Shown here: piece after piece, positions 2,583 through 11,916 of the stretch
Numbering within the stretch: position 1 is the first letter of the stretch
Layout of the letters: each line of letters opens with the position of its first letter
From: Hyphomicrobiales bacterium
Lineage (GTDB): Bacteria; Pseudomonadota; Alphaproteobacteria; Rhizobiales; Rhizobiaceae
Direction of reading: 5' to 3'
DNA: 64,000 bases
Assembly: GCA_900472675.1 (NCBI GenBank)
Contig: UCJA01000014.1
Span: 1 to 64,000, forward strand
The notes under the pieces: generated by a model
What the model was told of the DNA's origin: nothing
Databases searched by the model: none
Seen by the model: the letters and a program-made list of their open reading frames with translations, nothing else
Made by a program: the position numbers and the translations under genes

Positions 2583-2632
2583 CATCCGAATGGAGTCGCA
2601 GGAGCTCGCGGGCGGCACCCTCGTCGGTGATC
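2583..2632. repeat. Orphan copy of the SorC-regulator 3' end (left flank of inserted module)
   Basis: These 50 bases match 5106-5155, the 3' end of the intact SorC-type gene, at 46 of 50 positions. Read on the minus strand they encode ITDEGAARELLRLHSD, identical in protein to the intact gene's end. The differences within the alignment fall at third codon positions and are silent (ACC/ACT, GGT/GGC, CTC/CTG, CGA/CGG). This copy has no gene body attached. It marks the left edge of a 2.5-kb module. Confidence 0.85.
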
Positions 2633-2640
2633 GACTGACC

Positions 2641-2829
2641 TTGGCGGATATCGATATCGCGGCTCCCTTTTCGCAATGGGTGCGAACTAAAGTGCCATTC
2701 GGTGAATTCCCGAATCTCGTGGCCTAGCAGCAGCGGCTGCTGGACAGGGTGCCTGCCTGGGCCGCGACCAAGCGGGAGGTCGATACGCGCATGGATGGCG
2801 CTATGACGGCCGCCGGCATCAAACTGTGA
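2641..2829 (+). pseudogene. Remnant of a glutathione S-transferase C-terminus
   Basis: Translating from 2641 gives LADIDIAAPFSQWVRTKVPF, then GEFPNLVA, an in-frame TAG, then QQRLLDRVPAWAATKREV and a final TGA at 2827-2829. 'ADI.IAAP..QW' followed by 'P.L..W..R....PA' is the pattern of GST C-terminal helices. The TAG stands where Trp (TGG) is expected. No N-terminal thioredoxin-like part precedes it, so this is a decayed 3' fragment adjoining the orphan SorC end. Positions 2830-3002 hold nothing I can identify. Confidence 0.6.
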
Positions 2830-3002
2830 AGGATGCGCGTAAGCTTAGAGGTGGAACGGCTGGCCTTGGCGCAAAAACCGGGCATAGGTCGGATTTTGGC
2901 GGGGTGCCGGACGTTCCTATGTGAGACCTTGAAGCCAGTTTTGCGCCTTCGATCTGGTCGCTTACGCCCGTTACTGTGTTCAACCCTCCTCTACTAATGC
3001 AA

Positions 3003-3545
3003 TCAAAAAGTCATTTTCGACTGAAGTCCCCTCGCAGCAGCTGGCAGCCTTCTGCCGTAGATTGCCTGATACAGCGCGTCGAGGCAGTCGACGATTGATT
3101 GGATGCTTGTCTCAACATCCTTCTTTGTCAGCGTTGTGACGTCCTTAGGATGAGATATCTGGTTGCGGACCTTCAACGACACCTTCAGCTTCGCCCACCA
3201 CGGTGCATCTTTGTCGAGCGTAGACTTGGTGAAGCGAGCGAAAAGGAACAGGATACGGTCTTCCAGCCGGTGCATCTTCAAGTCATTTTTCAACTTATAC
3301 TGGCCATTGTCGAGGCGAACCTCCCGCTCAAGCAGGATCGACTTTTCGTGCGCTGTCAGCCCTTTCTGAAGGGCCATTTCGTCCGATACCGCGTTAACAT
3401 GGGCCTCGAGCGCGCAGAACGCTAGGACAATGCTGGCATGAAGATTGGCGTTCACGCCCTCCTCTTCGCTGGCCTCACCAGCGAGCTCTAGGAACCGCTT
3501 TGCTTCTTCAAGGAGAAGCGATGCAAATGTGTCAATGCTATCCAT
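3003..3545 (-). CDS. HEPN-like putative ribonuclease, second gene of a two-gene module
   Basis: The product has 180 residues and is largely helical. It ends with KVRNQISHPKD, in which R127 and H132 form an Rx4H motif, the catalytic signature of HEPN RNases. An N-terminal helix with 'FCALEAHVNAVSDEMA' also resembles HEPN/MAE_28990-type proteins. ATG at 3543-3545 is chosen because it overlaps the stop of the upstream gene (3538-3540) by eight bases, implying translational coupling. A longer frame starts at 3584, inside the upstream gene. I infer a toxin or effector controlled by, or working with, the ParB-like partner. A plain structural HEPN protein without RNase activity is the alternative. 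Confidence 0.65.
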   Translation of the reverse strand: MDSIDTFASLLLEEAKRFLELAGEASEEEGVNANLHASIVLAFCALEAHVNAVSDEMALQKGLTAHEKSILLEREVRLDNGQYKLKNDLKMHRLEDRILFLFARFTKSTLDKDAPWWAKLKVSLKVRNQISHPKDVTTLTKKDVETSIQSIVDCLDALYQAIYGRRLPAAARGLQSKMTF

Positions 3546-4770
3546 TTGCCCGAGCAATCTTGGCCTTTTCCCTCTCGACCTCAAGCTGAGCCTGCTTGGC
3601 GTGATATTTCATGATCCCGATGTTGATGTTGCCCTTGGTGATCCCGGAGCCGTCCTCCGCTTGCAGAAAGAAAAGTTCGGCAAACCGGCCACGCTCTTTG
3701 GCATCAGTGCGATAGCCAAGCCCACGGTATTGATCGGAGTCGGACTTGTGACGCCCCTTTACGAGCGCGCTGACATTTAACGGATCATGACCGGTGGCGT
3801 CTGCAAGGGCATAATGCCGTTGCAGACGCACGGCGTTGTTGCGCAGAACACCCGCTACAAACGTCCACGCGGCCAAGAGGGCCATGTTACTGGCCTTTTC
3901 TGGATAGTCCACAGGCGGCTTCGGCTTCTTGCCTTCGAACGCTTTCCGCTGGGCTGCGGCGAGACGCGCATATTCCTGACCAGCACGCTTTAACTCGGCA
4001 TCAGTCCAGAGGTGGGGCTGATCAGCTTTGACTGCATCCCACAATAGGTCGTGCTGCCCCGTCACTGTGATCGGCGGCAAGGTCTCCTTGCTGTCAAATT
4101 CGGCGGACGGAACCTTCGTCCCGGCAAAATAGCTCACAATGAACGTGCGGGCTGTCTGCACGGTAACGGCGCCGCGCGATTTTCGATCCGCGAAGTCCTC
4201 GCCCGGATCGAGCAGGCCGACTGACTGACACCAGTCGCGAAGCTGGGGTCCGCTCACTGTCTCGTGCATGCGGTCGAAGAGGTCTGACGATATCGCGATC
4301 ACAGTGTTAGATATGAGCTGGGCGTCGAGCCGCTGTTCGGTCGCCAGATCGAGATAAATCTTCACTCCGTGCCATTCATCGACGCCGGCTTCCAATGCCT
4401 CTTTGATGGCATGATAGCGATGTTGGCCGCCGATGATCATCAGCGGTTTGTCGATCGGCTTCTCGTGCGAATACTCTGTAACGATGCCGCTGAAGCTACG
4501 GCGTGCCTTAGCGTCGGACTTCATCTTAGCAAAAGCCGGGGCGTTGCTGACTACGTCGCGATTTGCGCGATAGTCTCCCTGCTCGTCCGGATCGAGCGGG
4601 GCGTCGGGGGTTGCGAACTCGACGAACTTGCTGCCGCGAACGTGGCAATCGCAGTACCGCGCACCCGTCCGCTCGTCGGTGATGATGTATAACTTATCGA
4701 GGTCTTCCATCGGGGCGAGCGTCGCGACGAGGTCCTTCTTTATTTCTTCAAGCGACTTGTCTGCTGCCAT
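3538..4770 (-). CDS. DGQHR/ParB-like domain protein, first gene of a two-gene module
   Basis: The product has 410 residues. The motif MIIGGQHRYHAIKEAL (residues 111-126) matches the DGQHR/ParB-sulfiredoxin-fold signature 'DGxHRxxA' seen in DndB-like and other defence-associated proteins, with Gly for the first Asp. A long helical C-terminal part follows, ending in a charged coil (KQAQLEVEREKAKIARANG). ATG at 4768-4770 is preferred because AGAGGGAAACAAG precedes it; the frame is open for 67 more codons upstream but these look non-conserved. It overlaps the HEPN gene by eight bases. The function may be nucleotide or DNA sensing, but this is inference. The module sits between duplicated gene ends, so it was probably acquired. 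Confidence 0.65.
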   Translation of the reverse strand: MAADKSLEEIKKDLVATLAPMEDLDKLYIITDERTGARYCDCHVRGSKFVEFATPDAPLDPDEQGDYRANRDVVSNAPAFAKMKSDAKARRSFSGIVTEYSHEKPIDKPLMIIGGQHRYHAIKEALEAGVDEWHGVKIYLDLATEQRLDAQLISNTVIAISSDLFDRMHETVSGPQLRDWCQSVGLLDPGEDFADRKSRGAVTVQTARTFIVSYFAGTKVPSAEFDSKETLPPITVTGQHDLLWDAVKADQPHLWTDAELKRAGQEYARLAAAQRKAFEGKKPKPPVDYPEKASNMALLAAWTFVAGVLRNNAVRLQRHYALADATGHDPLNVSALVKGRHKSDSDQYRGLGYRTDAKERGRFAELFFLQAEDGSGITKGNINIGIMKYHAKQAQLEVEREKAKIARANG

Positions 4771-5094
4771 CTTGTTTCCCTCTGACCATGCCACAGAGGA
4801 TAACCCGCCCGCGCAGAGCAACGCAATCGAATGCCTCTTGCGCCCGATTATTGCGCGAAGCGCCGATCGACGTGACTGGTGTAGGGCGATGGCCACTATC
4901 GTTGGTACGTCGTCTGCAAGCTGCCTGTCTGCTTTCGGCACCAAGTCGGACAGTGCGTCGGTTGAAGCCAATGACCCCTCCCAGCGCTATTCAGCCCTGC
5001 CACCCTATCCGCATCAGCGTGCGGCGGGAGCTTGCGCGTCAGTCGATGGCGGGACGCCCATACAGCGGGTGAAGGCACTCTCAGTCAGAGGCTT
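4771..5094. other. Intergenic region upstream of the DGQHR gene
   Basis: These 324 bases separate the DGQHR start from the 3' end of the SorC gene. They should carry the module's promoter on the minus strand, but I see no strong -35/-10 pair, palindrome or small gene. Short open frames here look random. Confidence 0.5.
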
Positions 5095-6084
5095 CTATGC
5101 GGCTTCATCCGAATGGAGCCGCAGCAGCTCGCGGGCGGCGCCCTCGTCAGTGATCAGCGTGTTGCAGCCGATGCGGCGGATGGTGGCGCGGATGGCGACG
5201 GCGCGGTGGGCGCCGCCGGATGAGAGCACAATGTGGCGGGCCTTCTTCAGCGTATCGAGATCGACGGACATGACCCGCTCGTTCAAGGCATGATCGACCG
5301 AGCGGCCTTCGGCATCGAGGAAATTGAACATGGTATCGCAGACGCAGCCGGCGGCGATCAGCCGCTCGAGCTCGGACTTGGCGATGAAGCCTTCCGAGAG
5401 CGAGGTGGAATGCGGGCCGATATCGCCGCAGCTGACCACCGCAAGATCGAGGTTTTCGGCCAGGTCGTAGATGGTCTTCAGCCCGCATTTGTCGATGAGG
5501 GCGCGCTTGGTCTCCACCGTATCGACCAGCAGGGGTGCGAGGAACATGTAGCACTCGGCGCCGAGCTGGCTTGCCAGCCGCCAGGTGTAATCGATCGGGT
5601 TGGTCTGGTGCACCGCGACGATGCCGCCCAAGAGCGACACGACCTTGCAGTTTTCGCGGCGCGGCGGGCGAAAGCCGGCGAGCGAGGCTGCCATGGTGCG
5701 ACCCCAGCCGACGCCGATGGTCATGTCGTTCTGGATGACCTGCGAGAGAAACTGCCCGAGTGCGAGGCCCACGGCGGTCGCGAGCGCTGCGGCACTGTCG
5801 TCACGCGGAGCCGGCACGACCACGGCCTCATCCAGGCCGTAAGCCTTTTCAAGGCCGGTTGCCAGCTCCAGGCAGGTGTCGACGCCCTCGCTGATCCAGA
5901 TCTGCACCTCCGACCGCTTCATGGCTTCATCGAGCAGGCGGATGACGGTCGAGCGGCTGACGCCCAGCCTTTCGGCCACATCCTTCTGGGTCATGCCCTG
6001 GTTATAATACAGCCAGGCAGCGCGCAGCCGCAGCGAGGCGGCTTCGGAAAACGTGGCGTGGGCATCGCGTCGCAGCTTGGGCAA
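5095..6084 (-). CDS. SorC/DeoR-type sugar-binding transcriptional regulator
   Basis: The product has 329 residues, the usual length. The N-terminal HTH is clear: AAWLYYNQGMTQKDVAERLG, then VSRSTVIRLLDEA, about residues 23-57. The sugar-phosphate-binding domain follows (VGLALGQFL, IGVGWGRTM, VSLLGGI, GAECYMFLAPLLV, LVITDEGAA-like end). It is divergent from transaldolase with a 198-base gap, which suggests it regulates that gene in response to a pentose or pentose-phosphate ligand. Its last 48 coding bases are duplicated at 2583-2632. Confidence 0.88.
   Translation of the reverse strand: MPKLRRDAHATFSEAASLRLRAAWLYYNQGMTQKDVAERLGVSRSTVIRLLDEAMKRSEVQIWISEGVDTCLELATGLEKAYGLDEAVVVPAPRDDSAAALATAVGLALGQFLSQVIQNDMTIGVGWGRTMAASLAGFRPPRRENCKVVSLLGGIVAVHQTNPIDYTWRLASQLGAECYMFLAPLLVDTVETKRALIDKCGLKTIYDLAENLDLAVVSCGDIGPHSTSLSEGFIAKSELERLIAAGCVCDTMFNFLDAEGRSVDHALNERVMSVDLDTLKKARHIVLSSGGAHRAVAIRATIRRIGCNTLITDEGAARELLRLHSDEAA
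5106..5155. repeat. Right-hand copy of the SorC 3'-end repeat (inside the intact gene)
   Basis: This is the partner of 2583-2632 in direct orientation (46/50 identical). It lies within the final codons of the intact SorC gene. The DGQHR/HEPN module and the GST remnant lie between the two copies. Confidence 0.85.
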
Positions 6085-6187
6085 AGGCCTTCAGATCCTG
6101 GCTGTTCGAGGCAGTCTCAGCCTCATTCTTATACAGCAGGCATGATAGAAGGGCGTGGACATATGTCAATCTTGAACGACAAATGTC

Positions 6188-6216
6188 TTGACTTATTGAG
6201 GCTAAAGGCGTGTTAT
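6188..6216 (+). promoter_or_regulatory. Sigma-70-type promoter of transaldolase
   Basis: TTGACT (6188-6193) and TGTTAT (6211-6216) are separated by 17 bases, 67 bases before the transaldolase ATG. Just upstream, TGTCAATCTTGAACGACA (6164-6181) has partial dyad symmetry and is a candidate operator for the divergent SorC regulator. Read from sequence; untested. Confidence 0.55.
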
Positions 6217-6282
6217 CCGGACAAGGCCAGGGACCCTTCGGGCGCCGCAGGCGTTTAAGAAGCCAATAGCGAGGATTACCGA

Positions 6283-7248
6283 ATGACGTCGAAACTAGAG
6301 CAGCTCCGCACCATGACTACGGTCGTCGCCGATACGGGTGACATCGAAGCCGTGACCCGCCTGAAGCCGGTGGATTGCACCACCAATCCGACCATCGTTC
6401 TCAAGGCGCTCGGCAGCGATGCGTTTGCCGACAAGGTCAAGGAAGCGATTGCCTGGGGTCGCAAGCAGGGTGGACAGGACGATGCCGTCGTTGCGTCCGT
6501 TGCCGACCGCATGGCAATCGACGTGGGTGCTGCCCTTGCCGCCATCGTGCCCGGCCGCGTTTCGACCGAAGTGGACGCCGACCTTTCCTTCGATACGGAA
6601 GCCTCGATCCACAAGGCGCACCAGATCATTGCCGCCTACAACGAGCGCGGCATCGAGCGTGACCGCATCCTGATCAAGCTGGCTTCGACCTGGGAAGGCA
6701 TTCGCGCTGCCGAAGTGCTGCAGAAGGAAGGCATCGACTGCAACCTGACGCTCCTGTTCAGCCAGGCCCAGGCGATTGCCTGCGCGCAGGCCAAGGTGTT
6801 CCTGATCTCGCCCTTCGTCGGTCGCATTCTAGACTGGCACAAGAAGTTCACCGGCCAGGAGTACACGTCGGAAACAGATCCGGGCGTGGTTTCGGTCCGT
6901 CAGATCTACAATTACTACAAGGCGAACGGCATCAGCACGATCGTCATGGGTGCGTCCTTCCGCAACGTCGGCGAGATCGAAGCGCTGGCCGGCTGCGATC
7001 GCCTGACGATCAGCCCGAACCTGCTCGACGAACTCGACAAGGACACTGGCAAGCTCGACCGCAAGCTGACGCCCGATACCTTCAATGCCGAGCCGATGCG
7101 TTCGCTCACCGAGAAGGAATTCCGCTGGATGCTGAACGAAGACCAGATGGCGACCGAAAAGCTTTCGGACGGCATCCGCATGTTCGCCAAGGATCTGGTT
7201 GCGTTGCGCACCATGGTCAAAAAAGAACTTGCGGTTGCGCAAATCTGA
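6283..7248 (+). CDS. tal: Transaldolase
   Basis: The product has 321 residues, matching TalB-type transaldolases. It transfers a dihydroxyacetone unit between sedoheptulose-7-phosphate and glyceraldehyde-3-phosphate in the non-oxidative pentose phosphate pathway in the cytosol. The Schiff-base Lys sits in [28 protein letters not shown] near the N-terminus and [10 protein letters not shown] near the C-terminus are family signatures. The gene stands alone, divergent from a SorC regulator, and ends at a strong intrinsic terminator. Confidence 0.96.
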
Positions 7249-7274
7249 CAGTCAATCCCGATAGAATTCAGCAG

Positions 7275-7306
7275 GAGGGCCCGTTCGCAACGGGCCCTCT
7301 TTTTTT
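7275..7306 (+). terminator. Intrinsic terminator of tal
   Basis: GAGGGCCCGTT and AACGGGCCCTC form an 11-bp perfect stem around a three-base loop, followed by seven T. It lies 27 bases after the tal stop. Confidence 0.95.
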
Positions 7307-7440
7307 GTCGAAAAACGCCAGGAAATTCGATGGATTTCTACTGGAGCGAATGGTGATTTAAGAGAAAATTCAGGAACATAGATCAAGTCTTGGAGTGCGG
7401 ACTGCCACAGGGAGTGGCACAGTCATTCTTTGGAGCCAGC

Positions 7441-9150
7441 ATGGTTAGCCTTCCCTTTGGTCGTCAGTCCTCCGACGCCGCCCTGATCGATGCCATCTAT
7501 CGTTCACAGGCCGTCATCGAGTTCGACATGAACGGCACGATCCTCACCGCCAACGAAAATTTCTGCAAGACTTTGGGGTATTCGCTGCAGGAGATCGTCG
7601 GCAAGCATCACCGGATGTTCGTCGATCCTGAAGATGCAGGCTCTGCCGTCTATGCGGATTTCTGGAAGCGGCTGGGCAAGGGCGAATACGACCAGGGCAA
7701 GTACAAGCGCTTCGGCAAGGGCGGCCGCGAAATCTGGATCGAAGCCTCCTACAATCCGATCTTCCGGGGCAAGAAACCCTACAAGGTCGTGAAGCTGGCA
7801 ACCGACATTACGGCGTCGCGGAAGGTGGCTCTGGAAAACCGCGGCAAGCTGGAGGCGCTGTCGCGGGCGCAGGCCATCATCGAATTCACGCCGTCAGGCG
7901 AGATCATCACCGCCAACGAAAACTTCCTCAGCACGCTCGGCTACCAGCTCGACGAGATCGTCGGCAGGCACCACGCGATGTTCTGCGAGCCGGAGTACAC
8001 CCGTTCTGAAGGCTACAAGGCCTTCTGGCGGAACCTTGGCGCCGGGCAGTTCGTGGCCGACCAGTTCACCCGGATCGGCAAGGGCGGTCGGCTCGTCTAT
8101 ATCCAGGCCTCCTATAACCCGATCATCGACGACAACGGCCATGTCCTCAAGGTGGTGAAATTTGCTACTAATGTGACGGACCGGATGCATGTGGTGACGG
8201 AACTCGGGGCCGGGCTTGCCCGCCTGTCCGAGTGCAATATCCGCCAGACGATCGATGAGCCCTTCATCGCCGAATTCGAGCCGCTGCGCCGGGATTTTAA
8301 CGCCTCGATCGGCGCCTTCCAGGAGGCGCTGGTCAGCGTGCTGCAGCAGACCAACAGCCTCAACGGCAACAGCAGCCAGATGCACGAGGCGGCAGACCAG
8401 CTTTCGCTGCGCACCAAGGAACAGGCGGCTTCGCTGGAACAGACCTCGGCTGCGCTCGAAGAGGTGACTGCGACGGTGCGCTCCTCGACCGTCAACACGG
8501 AAGACACGCGCAAGCTCGTAAAGAACGCGCTCGATTCCGCCTCCACCTCCGCCTCGGTGGTACAGGAAACCATCACCGCCATGCAGAGGATCCGGTCTGC
8601 TTCGTCGGAAATTACCAAGATCATTTCGGTGATCGACGAGATCGCCTTCCAGACCAACCTGCTGGCGCTCAACGCCGGCGTCGAGGCGGCGCGGGCCGGT
8701 GAGGCTGGCAAGGGTTTTGCCGTCGTCGCCCAGGAAGTGCGCGAGCTTGCGCAACGGTCGGCAAAGGCTGCCAAGGAGATCAAGGGTCTGATCGAGAACT
8801 CCGGCCGCGAGGTGACCGAAGGCGTGCGTCTAGTGGATGCCACCGGTGTCGCGCTGCATGAGATCGAGAGTTTTGTGGCGTCGATCGACCGCAACATGCA
8901 GTCGCTCGCAACGGCTGCCACGGAACAGTCGGTCGGACTTTCGGAGATCAACAATGCGGTCTCGCAGATCGACCGGATGACCCAGGAAAATGCCGGCATG
9001 GTGGAGCAGACGACGCAGATCAGCGCGGCACTGGCCGACGGTGCCGCACAACTGGCCGAGCTCGTCTCCCACTTCAAGCTCAACCGCCGCTCAATGGTGC
9101 GCGAGCCGGGGTCGACCGCCAGCCGCCAAGCACCCCGCCAGGCCGCCTGA
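7441..9150 (+). CDS. Soluble PAS-PAS methyl-accepting chemotaxis protein
   Basis: The product has 569 residues. Two PAS domains stand in tandem (about 10-130 and 135-252) with near-identical cores (QAVIEFDMNGTILTANENF and QAIIEFTPSGEIITANENF), so one arose by duplication. A HAMP-like helical linker leads to the MCP signalling domain with hairpin tip EIAFQTNLLALNAGVEAARA near residues 400-419. No transmembrane segment is seen, so it is a cytoplasmic energy, redox or aerotaxis sensor working through CheA/CheW. ATG at 7441 is preferred over TTG at 7390 because the PAS begins soon after it and GGAG precedes it. There is no C-terminal NWETF-type CheR/CheB tether. Confidence 0.93.
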   Translation: MVSLPFGRQSSDAALIDAIYRSQAVIEFDMNGTILTANENFCKTLGYSLQEIVGKHHRMFVDPEDAGSAVYADFWKRLGKGEYDQGKYKRFGKGGREIWIEASYNPIFRGKKPYKVVKLATDITASRKVALENRGKLEALSRAQAIIEFTPSGEIITANENFLSTLGYQLDEIVGRHHAMFCEPEYTRSEGYKAFWRNLGAGQFVADQFTRIGKGGRLVYIQASYNPIIDDNGHVLKVVKFATNVTDRMHVVTELGAGLARLSECNIRQTIDEPFIAEFEPLRRDFNASIGAFQEALVSVLQQTNSLNGNSSQMHEAADQLSLRTKEQAASLEQTSAALEEVTATVRSSTVNTEDTRKLVKNALDSASTSASVVQETITAMQRIRSASSEITKIISVIDEIAFQTNLLALNAGVEAARAGEAGKGFAVVAQEVRELAQRSAKAAKEIKGLIENSGREVTEGVRLVDATGVALHEIESFVASIDRNMQSLATAATEQSVGLSEINNAVSQIDRMTQENAGMVEQTTQISAALADGAAQLAELVSHFKLNRRSMVREPGSTASRQAPRQAA

Positions 9151-9172
9151 CCTTCCCAATCAGTCTGGAAAA

Positions 9173-9199
9173 GCCCGCCGGATGACCGGCGGGCCTTTT
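9173..9199 (+). terminator. Intrinsic terminator of the chemoreceptor gene
   Basis: GCCCGCCGG and CCGGCGGGC form a nine-base-pair stem with an ATGA loop followed by CTTTTT. It begins 23 bases past the stop codon. Confidence 0.92.
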
Positions 9200-9213
9200 T
9201 GTGTGTGCGATTC

Positions 9214-9250
9214 CATGGTTTCTCAGGCAGGCTGGGGGGTAAGGCGGGCG
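9214..9250. repeat. Orphan copy of the MFS-gene 3' end (left flank of PIN module)
   Basis: These 37 bases match 10612-10648 at 33 positions. Read on the minus strand they give RLTPQPA plus a stop, against RLVPQPA plus stop in the intact MFS gene. Two of the four differences are silent third-position changes and two lie in one Val/Thr codon. The stop codon of the PIN gene begins at the very next base (9251). Confidence 0.85.
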
Positions 9251-9745
9251 CTAAACATTGAAGCTCTTTTGCGGATCTTCCGGCGGTAAAGGAAGCTTGT
9301 CGATCATCCGCAATTCGACCGAGCTTCCCACCAGATATCGCCCCAAATTCGCGTCACTGGTGTAGATCGCACTTGCGCCTCTCACGATCGCTGTCGCCGC
9401 AATCATGGCATCGTACTTCATCGTGACTTTCCAATTTTCCGCTCGGTCCTGCGGCTTCAGATTGGCCTGATGATAGGCAATACGTTCGCCCGTCTCGATC
9501 GCAATGACTTCGTCAAAAGGCTGGACTGTAAAGCCCTTCAGCCGGCGCTGACTCTCGACCACCTCTTCGATCTTTTGCGCTCGACCCGCAACAAGTTCAG
9601 CGATGGCCGGAGCCGGGATCGTGATGACGGTGTTGGTCTTGGAAAGCCCGTCGACAAAGTATCTGACCTTTGCCGCGCGACTGTCGCTCTGAGTGCTGTC
9701 GGGGTGGATCATCAAGATCAGGAACACAGTGTCGACGACAATCAT
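9251..9745 (-). CDS. PIN-domain nuclease (putative VapC-like toxin)
   Basis: The product has 164 residues. The acidic PIN residues are in place: D5 (MIVVDTVFLI), E50 (PAPAIAELVAGR), D112 (MKYDAMIAATAI) and D131 (YTSDANLG). PIN proteins of this type are Mg-dependent RNases, often toxins. Its ATG overlaps the upstream gene's TGA in an ATGA arrangement, so the two are translationally coupled. It is longer than typical VapC (about 130 residues). The flanking repeats suggest acquisition. A housekeeping PIN protein is less likely given the context. Confidence 0.82.
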   Translation of the reverse strand: MIVVDTVFLILMIHPDSTQSDSRAAKVRYFVDGLSKTNTVITIPAPAIAELVAGRAQKIEEVVESQRRLKGFTVQPFDEVIAIETGERIAYHQANLKPQDRAENWKVTMKYDAMIAATAIVRGASAIYTSDANLGRYLVGSSVELRMIDKLPLPPEDPQKSFNV

Positions 9746-10464
9746 GCTCGACGAAGCTCATCGATAGCCTGAATGAGGCTTAATGCGCCTGATTCAGGTA
9801 CGGCACTGCGCAATTTCTGCAGGGTTTGACGCAAAGGGAGATCCTCCAGTAGCTCGAAGGAGGCGGCGGAGAGGTCATCCAAGTGCCATTTGCCCGATGT
9901 GTCGCGTCTCCATTTGCCGTCACCGCTCACCCTCACGTATTGATGGAAGAGTTTAGCCAGAGCGAGAGCATGTGCGGCGTCGATGGAAATCCGGGCAGTC
10001 AGGGCGCCGTCGATCTCCAGGCCGATCTTCACTCTCTCGCCAGCTCCCTCAATGCGAATGAGGCGGCCTTGAACCGATGTCTGTTGGTTGACGACACGTA
10101 TGATCTTTGATGCTTTAGAGGCTCCTGGGAATGCGATGGTCTCACCGCCGTTCGGCAGCGGCATCTCCGCCGTCCACCCGTCCTCGGCCAGGAATTCGTT
10201 CAGCTTCTTCCAAGGTGCAGCGGCATCAGCATCATTGTCATTCTGCGCCGCTTCTCGTATTCGCGGAGATATGGTTGCGATGGCCTGATCTTCCACGAAT
10301 GCAACAATGCTGACGCTTTGGTCCCGAAGTTCTTTGAAGTGGACACTTTCGGCCGCGCCCATCAGCTTCGATAGTTCGACCATGTAGAGCCCCAGCCTTG
10401 CCATTGAGATGGTTTCAGGCTTGGCCCCCAGTATGCGGAATGAATATTCGATGAAATCAGTCAT
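9742..10464 (-). CDS. Protein of unknown function coupled to PIN nuclease (possible antitoxin)
   Basis: The product has 240 residues and no family I recognise. It starts MTDFIEYSFRILGAKPETIS and ends in a charged helical tail (LSLIQAIDELRRA). The middle holds a beta-rich stretch (QGRLIRIEGAGERVKIGLEI). ATG at 10462-10464 follows GGAGCGGTAGA; longer starts lack support. It precedes the PIN gene with a four-base overlap and has a 9-bp palindrome upstream, both usual in toxin-antitoxin operons. The antitoxin role is inferred from context only. No canonical antitoxin DNA-binding motif is visible, and it is larger than common antitoxins. Confidence 0.6.
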   Translation of the reverse strand: MTDFIEYSFRILGAKPETISMARLGLYMVELSKLMGAAESVHFKELRDQSVSIVAFVEDQAIATISPRIREAAQNDNDADAAAPWKKLNEFLAEDGWTAEMPLPNGGETIAFPGASKASKIIRVVNQQTSVQGRLIRIEGAGERVKIGLEIDGALTARISIDAAHALALAKLFHQYVRVSGDGKWRRDTSGKWHLDDLSAASFELLEDLPLRQTLQKLRSAVPESGALSLIQAIDELRRA

Positions 10465-10529
10465 TCTACCGCTCCGCATCCGTCTTGAGCTCACCGATCC
10501 TAGCATAATGCACCATTGAACCCAAAAGA

Positions 10530-10549
10530 ATGCAGCGAAATCGCTGCAT
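10530..10549. promoter_or_regulatory. Palindromic operator upstream of the PIN module
   Basis: ATGCAGCGA and TCGCTGCAT form a perfect inverted repeat around AA. On the minus strand a TATGCT -10-like box lies between it and the start at 10464, so binding here could block transcription. Its position suits autoregulation of a toxin-antitoxin operon. Confidence 0.55.
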
Positions 10550-10611
10550 GGCACGCGGACCTTTCCTCTTCCGCGATTGTCGCTGGTGCTCGTGGATCAA
10601 TCTTACTATCG

Positions 10612-10648
10612 CATGGTTTCTCAGGCCGGCTGGGGGACCAGGCGGGCG
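10612..10648. repeat. Right-hand copy of the MFS 3'-end repeat
   Basis: Partner of 9214-9250 in direct orientation (33/37). It covers the last codons and stop of the intact MFS gene plus nine bases beyond. The whole PIN operon and its palindrome lie between the copies. Confidence 0.85.
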
Positions 10649-11916
10649 GAGCCAGGCTTCTTGAGCAAGAGCACCGAGACGGCGGCGAGCATGCACATCA
10701 CGCCGGCGATCTGCAGGGCCGGCATATAGGTGTCGAAGCCGCTCTTCAGGTAGCCGGCGCCGAAGGCTGCGGTGGCTGCGCCCAGCTGGTGGCCGGTGAA
10801 GACCCAGCCGAAGACGATGCCGGCCTTTTCGCGACCGAAGGTATCGGCGGCGAGACGCACCGTCGGGGGCACGGTGGCGATCCAGTCCAACCCGTAGAAG
10901 ACGGCAAAGGCCGACAGCTCGTAGAAGCTGAAGCCGGAGAAGGACAGGTAGATCAGCGACAGGCCGCGCAGGCCATAATACCAGAACAGCAGGACGCGAT
11001 TGTCGTAGCGGTCGGACAGCCAGCCCGACATGATCGTGCCGACGAAGTCGAAGATGCCCAGCACGGCAAGCGTGCCGGCCGCCGAGACGGGGCTCATGCC
11101 AAAGTCTCCGCAGATGGAGATCCAGTGGGTCTGGATGAGGCCGTTGGTGGAGAGGCCGCAGACGAAGAAGGTGCCGAACAGCACCCAGAAGGTTCCGCTG
11201 GTGGACACGCTCTTCAGGACCATGATCGGGGAGGCGAGGGTGGCCAGCAGCTTGTGATCCTGCTTTGGCGGGCGGGTGACGGTTGCTTCGCCGTAGGCGG
11301 GCAGATCGAGATCGGCCGGATGGTTGCGCATCAGCGCCAGCACCAGCAGCATGGCAATCGTGATGGCGGTCGCCGTCAGGGTCAGTGCCGTGCGCCAGCC
11401 ATAGGTTTCACTGAGCTGGGCGAGCAGCGGCAGGAAGATCAGCTGGCCCGTCGCGTTGCTTGCGCTCAACAGGCCGATCACCAGGCCGCGGCGGTGCGAG
11501 AACCAGCGCGAGGCGACCGTCGCGCCGAGCACCATGGCCGTCATGCCGGTGCCGACGCCGATCACTACGCCCCAGAGCGCGACCAGCTGCCAGACCTGCG
11601 TCATGAACAGTGACAGCACGATGCCGCCGAGAATGAGTGCAAGGGCGAAGGAGACCACCTGGCGGACGCCGAAATGGTTCATGAAGGCGGCGGCGAAGGG
11701 ACCGAGCAGGCCGAATAGCACGAGACGGACCGCCATGGCGGAGGAGATTTCGGCGATGTCCCAGCCGAACTCCTGGTGCAGCGGCTGGATCATCACGCCG
11801 GCCGAACCCATGGCGCCAGCCGTCGCCAGCATGGTGAGGAAGGTGGTGGCGGCGACGACCCATCCGTAGTGGAGGTTTCGTTTTGCCATCCAGCGGGCGG
11901 CATAGGTGGAGATCAT
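10621..11916 (-). CDS. MFS transporter (monocarboxylate-type or multidrug)
   Basis: The product has 431 residues with about 12 membrane helices. Features include an RNLHYGWVVAATTFLTML start, an LGATVASRWFSHRRG loop between helices 4 and 5, and GWLSDRYDNR in the second half, which is the MFS motif A. YGWVV at the N-terminus is typical of the OFA/monocarboxylate-transporter-like branch. ATG at 11916 follows GGAAGGG. The gene is 73 bases downstream of a MarR gene and has its own copy of the MarR palindrome upstream, so it is probably induced by a MarR ligand. Substrate unknown. Confidence 0.87.
   Translation of the reverse strand: MISTYAARWMAKRNLHYGWVVAATTFLTMLATAGAMGSAGVMIQPLHQEFGWDIAEISSAMAVRLVLFGLLGPFAAAFMNHFGVRQVVSFALALILGGIVLSLFMTQVWQLVALWGVVIGVGTGMTAMVLGATVASRWFSHRRGLVIGLLSASNATGQLIFLPLLAQLSETYGWRTALTLTATAITIAMLLVLALMRNHPADLDLPAYGEATVTRPPKQDHKLLATLASPIMVLKSVSTSGTFWVLFGTFFVCGLSTNGLIQTHWISICGDFGMSPVSAAGTLAVLGIFDFVGTIMSGWLSDRYDNRVLLFWYYGLRGLSLIYLSFSGFSFYELSAFAVFYGLDWIATVPPTVRLAADTFGREKAGIVFGWVFTGHQLGAATAAFGAGYLKSGFDTYMPALQIAGVMCMLAAVSVLLLKKPGSARLVPQPA

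Follow-up and report, generated by a model that had tools for sequence, protein, structure and literature searches.

What is the role of two overlapping genes, one for a predicted ParB/sulfiredoxin (Srx)-fold protein and the other for a predicted HEPN ribonuclease (RNase), that adjoin a core gene of a Rhizobiaceae genome? The pair lies near the left end of contig UCJA01000014.1 (assembly GCA_900472675.1, Hyphomicrobiales bacterium), whose positions 1 to 64,000, read on the forward strand, constitute the 64,000-nucleotide (nt) stretch analyzed here, hereafter the window. The two genes form a strictly paired and probably mobile module, which looks like an uncharacterized anti-phage or toxin-antitoxin module of distantly related bacteria. 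The reading towards which we lean, with modest confidence, is that the two genes are a mobile unit, serving immunity or of the toxin-antitoxin type, in which the HEPN RNase is restrained by the nucleotide-binding product of gene 1. The initial annotation had already described two overlapping genes; these proved to lie on the minus strand, which it did not give, and to share 8 nt:

3538..4770, minus strand: gene 1, ParB/sulfiredoxin-fold protein with a GGQHR motif (DGQHR-like), 410 amino acids; from the translation, a TIGR03187 match below the cut-off and the predicted fold
4294..4653, minus strand: ParB/Srx domain of gene 1, residues 40-159; residues 160-410 are mostly helical in the model
4417..4431, minus strand: GGQHR motif of gene 1, residues 114-118; from the alignment of gene 1 homologs
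3003..3545, minus strand: gene 2, HEPN protein (RiboL-PSP-HEPN family), predicted RNase, 180 amino acids by translation; from a PF18735 match and the predicted fold
3150..3167, minus strand: RNQISH (RNxxxH) predicted catalytic motif of gene 2, residues 127-132; from the alignment of HEPN homologs
3538..3545, minus strand: 8-nt overlap of gene 1 and gene 2, ATGGATAG

Pairing, conservation and spread

Copies of gene 1 were gathered from a scan of species genomes (30 loci), a scan of viral contigs (four loci), a genome of the family sample (G085) and the window, which together make 35 distinct places, as loci L013 and L006 share one sequence and are counted once. Locus L025 stops 34 bases past gene 1 and so falls outside the testable places. 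With gene 1 as bait, the HEPN gene was found next on the same strand in 33 of the 34 testable places, with a gap of -122 to +5 nt in these 33 paired loci, as measured between the stop of gene 1 and the earliest start codon in the HEPN frame. Given that 32 of the 33 testable places outside the window keep the two genes side by side, their pairing is strict and not a matter of chance, and the co-occurrence on which the initial annotation had staked its proposal held. The sole testable place without a HEPN gene is L032, in whose genome no HEPN match was found either. This is a broken gene 1 copy or an assembly join: at positions 584-1837 of L032 the C-terminal part of gene 1 is missing, and its frame runs on into unrelated sequence that appears, by eye, methylase-like.

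The reverse search, with HEPN as bait, returned the same two of 394 family genomes (the window's own included) as carrying both genes, and one of 385 class genomes, again its own. Exactly one HEPN match (E <= 1e-5) is present in 27 of the 30 locus genomes, with none in those of L013, L025 and L032, and the three viral contigs detected via HEPN are all among the four detected via gene 1, the fourth having been missed by the HEPN patterns. Further, across the 33 loci the distances among gene 1 proteins correlate with those among their HEPN partners (r 0.78; 0 of 5000 permutations). No third gene family recurs with the pair, the commonest cluster among 508 flanking open reading frame (ORF) products being present in five loci, kilobases away from the module.

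Compared pairwise over the 33 pairs, gene 1 proteins are on average 54% identical to one another and the HEPN proteins 41%. In gene 1, 78 of 410 positions are identical in all 33 loci, including the stretches YRANR, GGQxR, QxISNT and YRGLGxR, and GGQHR itself is kept in 32 of them, with GGQRR in L010. Nine of the 180 HEPN positions are identical throughout, three of which are R127, N128 and H132.

By the titles of the records, the gene 1 tree spans ten phyla, or nine once Binatota is set aside, a label that is unsafe because it rests on L006, the same sequence as L013. Specifically, positions 1-3223 of L006 and 7798-11020 of L013, which ends inside gene 1, are 99.97% identical over 3223 bases; the two were binned as Candidatus Binataceae and Xanthobacteraceae within one project, and hence at least one public record contains a binning error. 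Five phyla are represented by named isolates, namely Pseudomonadota (L010), Planctomycetota (L012), Bacillota (L020), Actinomycetota (L022, L033) and Bacteroidota (L024), and the remaining four are known from metagenome bins. Several phyla are grouped in the gene 1 tree, which requires 11 changes of phylum label where the minimum possible is nine, and scatters Pseudomonadota (four changes) and Planctomycetota (three). As the tree thus conflicts with host phylum only in part, we do not claim rampant recent transfer. Loci L015 and L016 are related, with 91% identity over 3354 bases and common neighbors. That gene 1 is so well conserved from phylum to phylum might point to a housekeeping or regulatory RNA-processing pair rather than a conflict module, but the distribution is rare and patchy across the genus, family and class genome samples, and the pair occurs on viral contigs and adjoins restriction genes in some loci, all of which renders that explanation extremely improbable.

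Predicted folds and a proposed switch

Gene 2 scores above the cut-off of the Pfam family HEPN_RiboL-PSP (PF18735; 29.9 bits versus 28.4, E 6.4e-07), and its predicted model has the HEPN fold, with MntA-HepT among the nearest HEPN structures, so that the structural prediction agrees with the initial annotation. Its homologs number 393 proteins at E <= 0.001 among 542 candidates. The Rx4H motif that the initial annotation had recognized towards the end of the protein (R127, H132) proved invariant along with N128 in all 28 aligned HEPN sequences, one of which is that of the window, and the Rx4-6H signature by which HEPN members are recognized is present as RNxxxH in these 28 and in all 33 paired loci, again with the window among them. 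A HEPN profile run against sequences from the PDB gave no meaningful result, matching designed helical proteins. HEPN RNases work as dimers, and we predict that gene 2 encodes an RNase toxin of this fold.

Gene 1 has at least 771 homologs at E <= 0.001 among 8000 candidates scored. Its predicted model adopts the ParB/sulfiredoxin fold, sulfiredoxin being within the matched fold, with the match limited to residues 40-159, and it also weakly matches structures of the GmrSD/BrxU/SspE type (DUF262). The initial annotation had placed gene 1, from the stretch IGGQHRYHAI, with DGQHR/ParB-fold proteins; the stretch is present and the predicted model upholds the fold, whereas membership in the DGQHR or DndB families is not supported. 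The scores fall below the curated cut-offs for both TIGR03187 (NCBIfam; 16.8 bits versus 58.85, E 0.0045) and PF14072 (Pfam; 11.4 bits versus 29.1, E 0.16), and the pentapeptide is GGQHR rather than DGQHR, differing in its first residue, in all 26 alignment rows. NCBIfam returned no match other than TIGR03187. No nucleotidyltransferase family of Pfam matched gene 1 at E <= 1, and its sequence profile recovered nothing meaningful from the PDB (best E 0.52). The gene 1 protein probably binds a nucleotide. Read solely from the anatomy of the locus, it would control the HEPN nuclease; the further suggestion that it guides the nuclease found no support.

Neither protein matched any family of PADLOC-DB 2.0.0 at E <= 1, and in PHROGs only weak matches were obtained (E 0.05 and 0.09). 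RNA control has been reported for AbiF. Rfam produced one match inside gene 1, far below the gathering score (E 0.26), and at gathering scores its single match over nine loci was a transfer RNA in L034; hence, an RNA antitoxin of a curated family was not seen. Scans for promoters and terminators were not clearly above shuffled sequences.

The initial annotation knew of no described system with exactly this pair. No study of the pair was seen in the open-access papers searched, among which subscription papers and preprint servers are mostly not included, but Table 1 of a 2013 survey of HEPN domains (Anantharaman et al. 2013, PMC3710099) lists Ribo L-PSP-HEPN as active, fused to endoRNase L-PSP and in an 'operon with ParB'. 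This entry shares with our pair the named HEPN family (PF18735), the ParB-fold neighbor and the predicted activity; in the accessible text it is a table entry, with no mechanism, distribution or test of this pair given there. It probably represents the same association and the first note of this pairing. Background on ParB/Srx, DndB, GmrS and HEPN proteins is available in PMC10853773, PMC12839542, PMC3506569, PMC5512222 and PMC4619093, and the accessible part of PMC10714953 concerns a different subject from this pair.

Among characterized systems, the HEPN-MNT (MntA-HepT) type VII toxin-antitoxin resembles the module in being a two-gene unit of a HEPN toxin and a partner, with a near HEPN structure, and differs from it in that the partner here has the ParB/Srx fold instead of being a minimal nucleotidyltransferase (MNT). 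The DndB, DpdB and DGQHR-domain proteins are likewise ParB-type with QHR in the pentapeptide, but gene 1 lies below their family cut-offs, has GGQHR and forms a two-gene unit with HEPN. GmrSD, BrxU and SspE (DUF262 with HNH) couple a ParB/Srx-fold domain to a nuclease in defense and share the weak structural match, whereas here the predicted nuclease is a HEPN-type RNase in a separate protein, and no DUF262, DUF1524 or HNH match was seen for either protein at E <= 1. We regard the module as a variant of the HEPN-based systems, whether toxin or abortive infection, in which the partner is of the ParB/Srx kind; this pairing was probably glimpsed in 2013.

The analysis established the genes, the folds predicted for them, the conserved motifs, the pairing, and locations within or next to mobile elements; from these we infer a shared transcript, RNase activity, nucleotide binding, inhibition, a trigger and phage defense, which might be joined as follows. 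Gene 2 would be a HEPN endoribonuclease toxin with RNxxxH as its active site, and gene 1, first in the operon, would combine a ParB/sulfiredoxin domain that binds cytidine, adenosine or guanosine triphosphate (CTP, ATP or GTP) with a helical C-terminal part, and keep the RNase inactive within a complex. A phage might then alter the nucleotide pool, or DNA sensed via the ParB domain, and this change would switch gene 1 and free the RNase, whereupon translation would stop and the infection be aborted. That gene 1 holds HEPN until such a change in nucleotide or DNA state is suggested by the overlap of the genes, the RNase-toxin fold with an intact motif and the ParB/Srx partner. The module is tightly conserved and widely spread, and pairs a predicted RNase toxin with what is predicted to be an NTP switch. 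If confirmed, this would add a ParB/Srx controller to the known regulators of HEPN toxins and assign a role to proteins that at present are mostly annotated as hypothetical.

A related possibility is that gene 1 silences HEPN by phosphorylation or NMPylation at the expense of a nucleoside triphosphate (NTP), as the MNT does with HepT. Sulfiredoxin, a phosphotransferase, falls within the ParB/Srx fold, the very high conservation of gene 1 would suit an enzyme, and the nearness of the HEPN model to MntA-HepT points the same way. However, the HxY motif, the target of AMPylation in HepT, is absent, with no Tyr at H+2 in any of the 33 paired loci or 28 aligned HEPN sequences, and over the 33 loci HEPN does not have a single invariant Tyr, Ser or Thr. 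These absences speak against a mechanism copied directly from the MNT, while another modification of HEPN would still be compatible with them; a type VII-like arrangement appears to us quite improbable. In a broader form, gene 1 might be a ParB/sulfiredoxin-fold enzyme antitoxin that modifies or clamps HEPN in an NTP-driven manner and reads the nucleotide pool, so that nucleotide take-over by a phage fires the toxin. We offer this as a tentative idea, itself rather unlikely; if true, it would to our knowledge be the first case of an enzyme of ParB fold switching a toxin that cuts RNA, present in nine phyla or more.

Alternatively, both proteins might be effectors, with gene 1 as a ParB-type DNA nickase or NTPase acting against invading DNA and HEPN as a back-up RNase. 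ParB/Srx proteins of conflict systems have been described as nucleases and NTPases (in PMC5512222 and PMC10853773, as far as the accessible text goes), and the predicted fold of gene 1 would fit. Yet the ParB/Srx match covers residues 40-159 only, while invariant stretches such as YRGLGxR also lie in the helical part, and no conserved nearby partner for target recognition or modification accompanies the pair, leaving this option improbable.

Neighboring genes and the weight of the evidence

We scanned up to three genes of at least 110 amino acids on each side of the module in 35 loci (L003-L037, with L013 repeating L006), i.e. 173 proteins. Among the first 25 of the 98 and 99 Pfam families listed for the two sets were AbiH (2/84), phage integrase (3/84) and SIR2_2 (2/89), and the same tallies list C5 DNA methylases, Gabija GajA and GajB, EcoRII, and phage tail and terminase families. 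Housekeeping families form the majority, and, except for the protein that heads each set, the tallies do not assign families to individual proteins. PADLOC matches at 1e-40 were obtained for nine of 30 large neighbors, in eight loci:

L012: type I restriction enzyme
L014 and L037: type II methylases
L008: helicase
L017: PD-T4-6-like kinase
L019: GajA
L020: Dsr1-like protein
L023: Old and a type IIG enzyme

Some of these, e.g. the kinase and the helicase, could serve other roles. Defense and phage genes thus lie near several copies, in support of the initial annotation. In L036 the gene 1 frame starts 3 nt past a tail gene related to that of pyocin R2 (E 6e-34), which is preceded by a pyocin-ripcord-like gene (E 1.6e-10). 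Based on its sequence context, the L036 module appears to occupy a cargo position in a contractile-tail prophage. Positions 3318-11748 of that locus hold sheath-, tube- and tape-measure-like genes (by eye), then the ripcord-like and tail genes, and then the module. In L014 a Vsr endonuclease gene lies directly upstream.

Several points weigh against the reading of a restrained immunity RNase. The 30 large neighbors, from 23 loci, were picked by size after the tallies were known, and 15 of the 23 loci yielded no PADLOC match. In the window itself, none of the 46 genes of at least 150 amino acids beyond position 7000 matches PADLOC at 1e-40; set against these, nine of 30 gives a Fisher value of 1e-4 with a rough control, and because that control is another genome we grade the enrichment of defense genes near the module as likely rather than measured. 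The high conservation of gene 1 is unlike that of a fast-evolving phage sensor, and would better fit an enzyme or small-molecule switch than a sensor of phage proteins. No fusion of the two proteins was seen among 2028 candidates, and Foldseek found no PDB match below E 0.001 for either model. Finally, tblastn detected no gene 1 match in 50,697 annotated phage records; therefore, phage carriage rests on IMG/VR contigs.

Some of the same evidence bears on a plain addiction module, in which gene 1 would be a protein antitoxin that binds HEPN, the pair would keep itself and its island, and defense would be incidental. Its consisting of just two overlapping genes, the patchy spread (one of 57 genus genomes and the two family genomes, own genome included) and the 46 window genes devoid of a defense match are all in keeping with such a module. 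Nevertheless, tblastn found neither protein in 72,556 plasmid records, a usual home of such modules, and gene 1, with 410 amino acids, a ParB/Srx fold and 78 invariant residues, is large for a simple antitoxin. We regard addiction as unlikely.

In L037, which is phage-like, two tandem genes with similar N-termini that by eye resemble ParB-methylases lie just upstream of the module (2722-5543), the first of them matching the type II methylase model. The terminase-like gene of L037 and the recombinase-like gene of L003, both labeled by eye, had no match among PDB sequences.

The insertion site in the window

The features that delimit the module in the window are:

2583..2632, no strand: distal copy of a 50-bp direct repeat beside the inserted stretch, 92% identical to 5106-5155
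5106..5155, no strand: proximal copy of the repeat, at the 3' end of the regulator gene; from repeat comparison
5095..6084, minus strand: sugar-binding regulator gene, a genus core gene adjoining the module (Sugar-bind PF04198, E 1.6e-55)

The regulator gene, which we take to be SorC/DeoR-like, is present in all 57 genus genomes (E <= 1e-100). In 29 other genus loci (out of 56 other genomes) similarity to the window starts at positions 5117-5144, i.e. at the end of this gene, and none of the module was found in the roughly 1.5 kb past it in these loci. Gene 1 occurs in one of 57 genus genomes, namely that of the window. The pair is thus an insertion adjoining a core gene, with att-like repeats. 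The duplicated ends of a chromosomal gene that the initial annotation had noted at its flanks are borne out by the 50-bp repeat (92% identity, E 2e-16). A site-specific element with its own integrase was considered and rejected, as no ORF between the repeats, the two genes aside, resembles a recombinase; the element, if it was one, is therefore a remnant or used enzymes in trans.

Just past the distal repeat, a plus-strand stretch of 65 codons, interrupted by one stop and closed by another (2635-2829), may resemble the C-terminal end of a glutathione S-transferase, a label given by eye; its first 30 residues (the remnant at 2635-2727) had no match among PDB sequences. The region to the left of the module is cut off by the end of the contig, which starts, at positions 1-60 of the window, with a short repeat in which ccgaggatgacggcgttgagg occurs twice.

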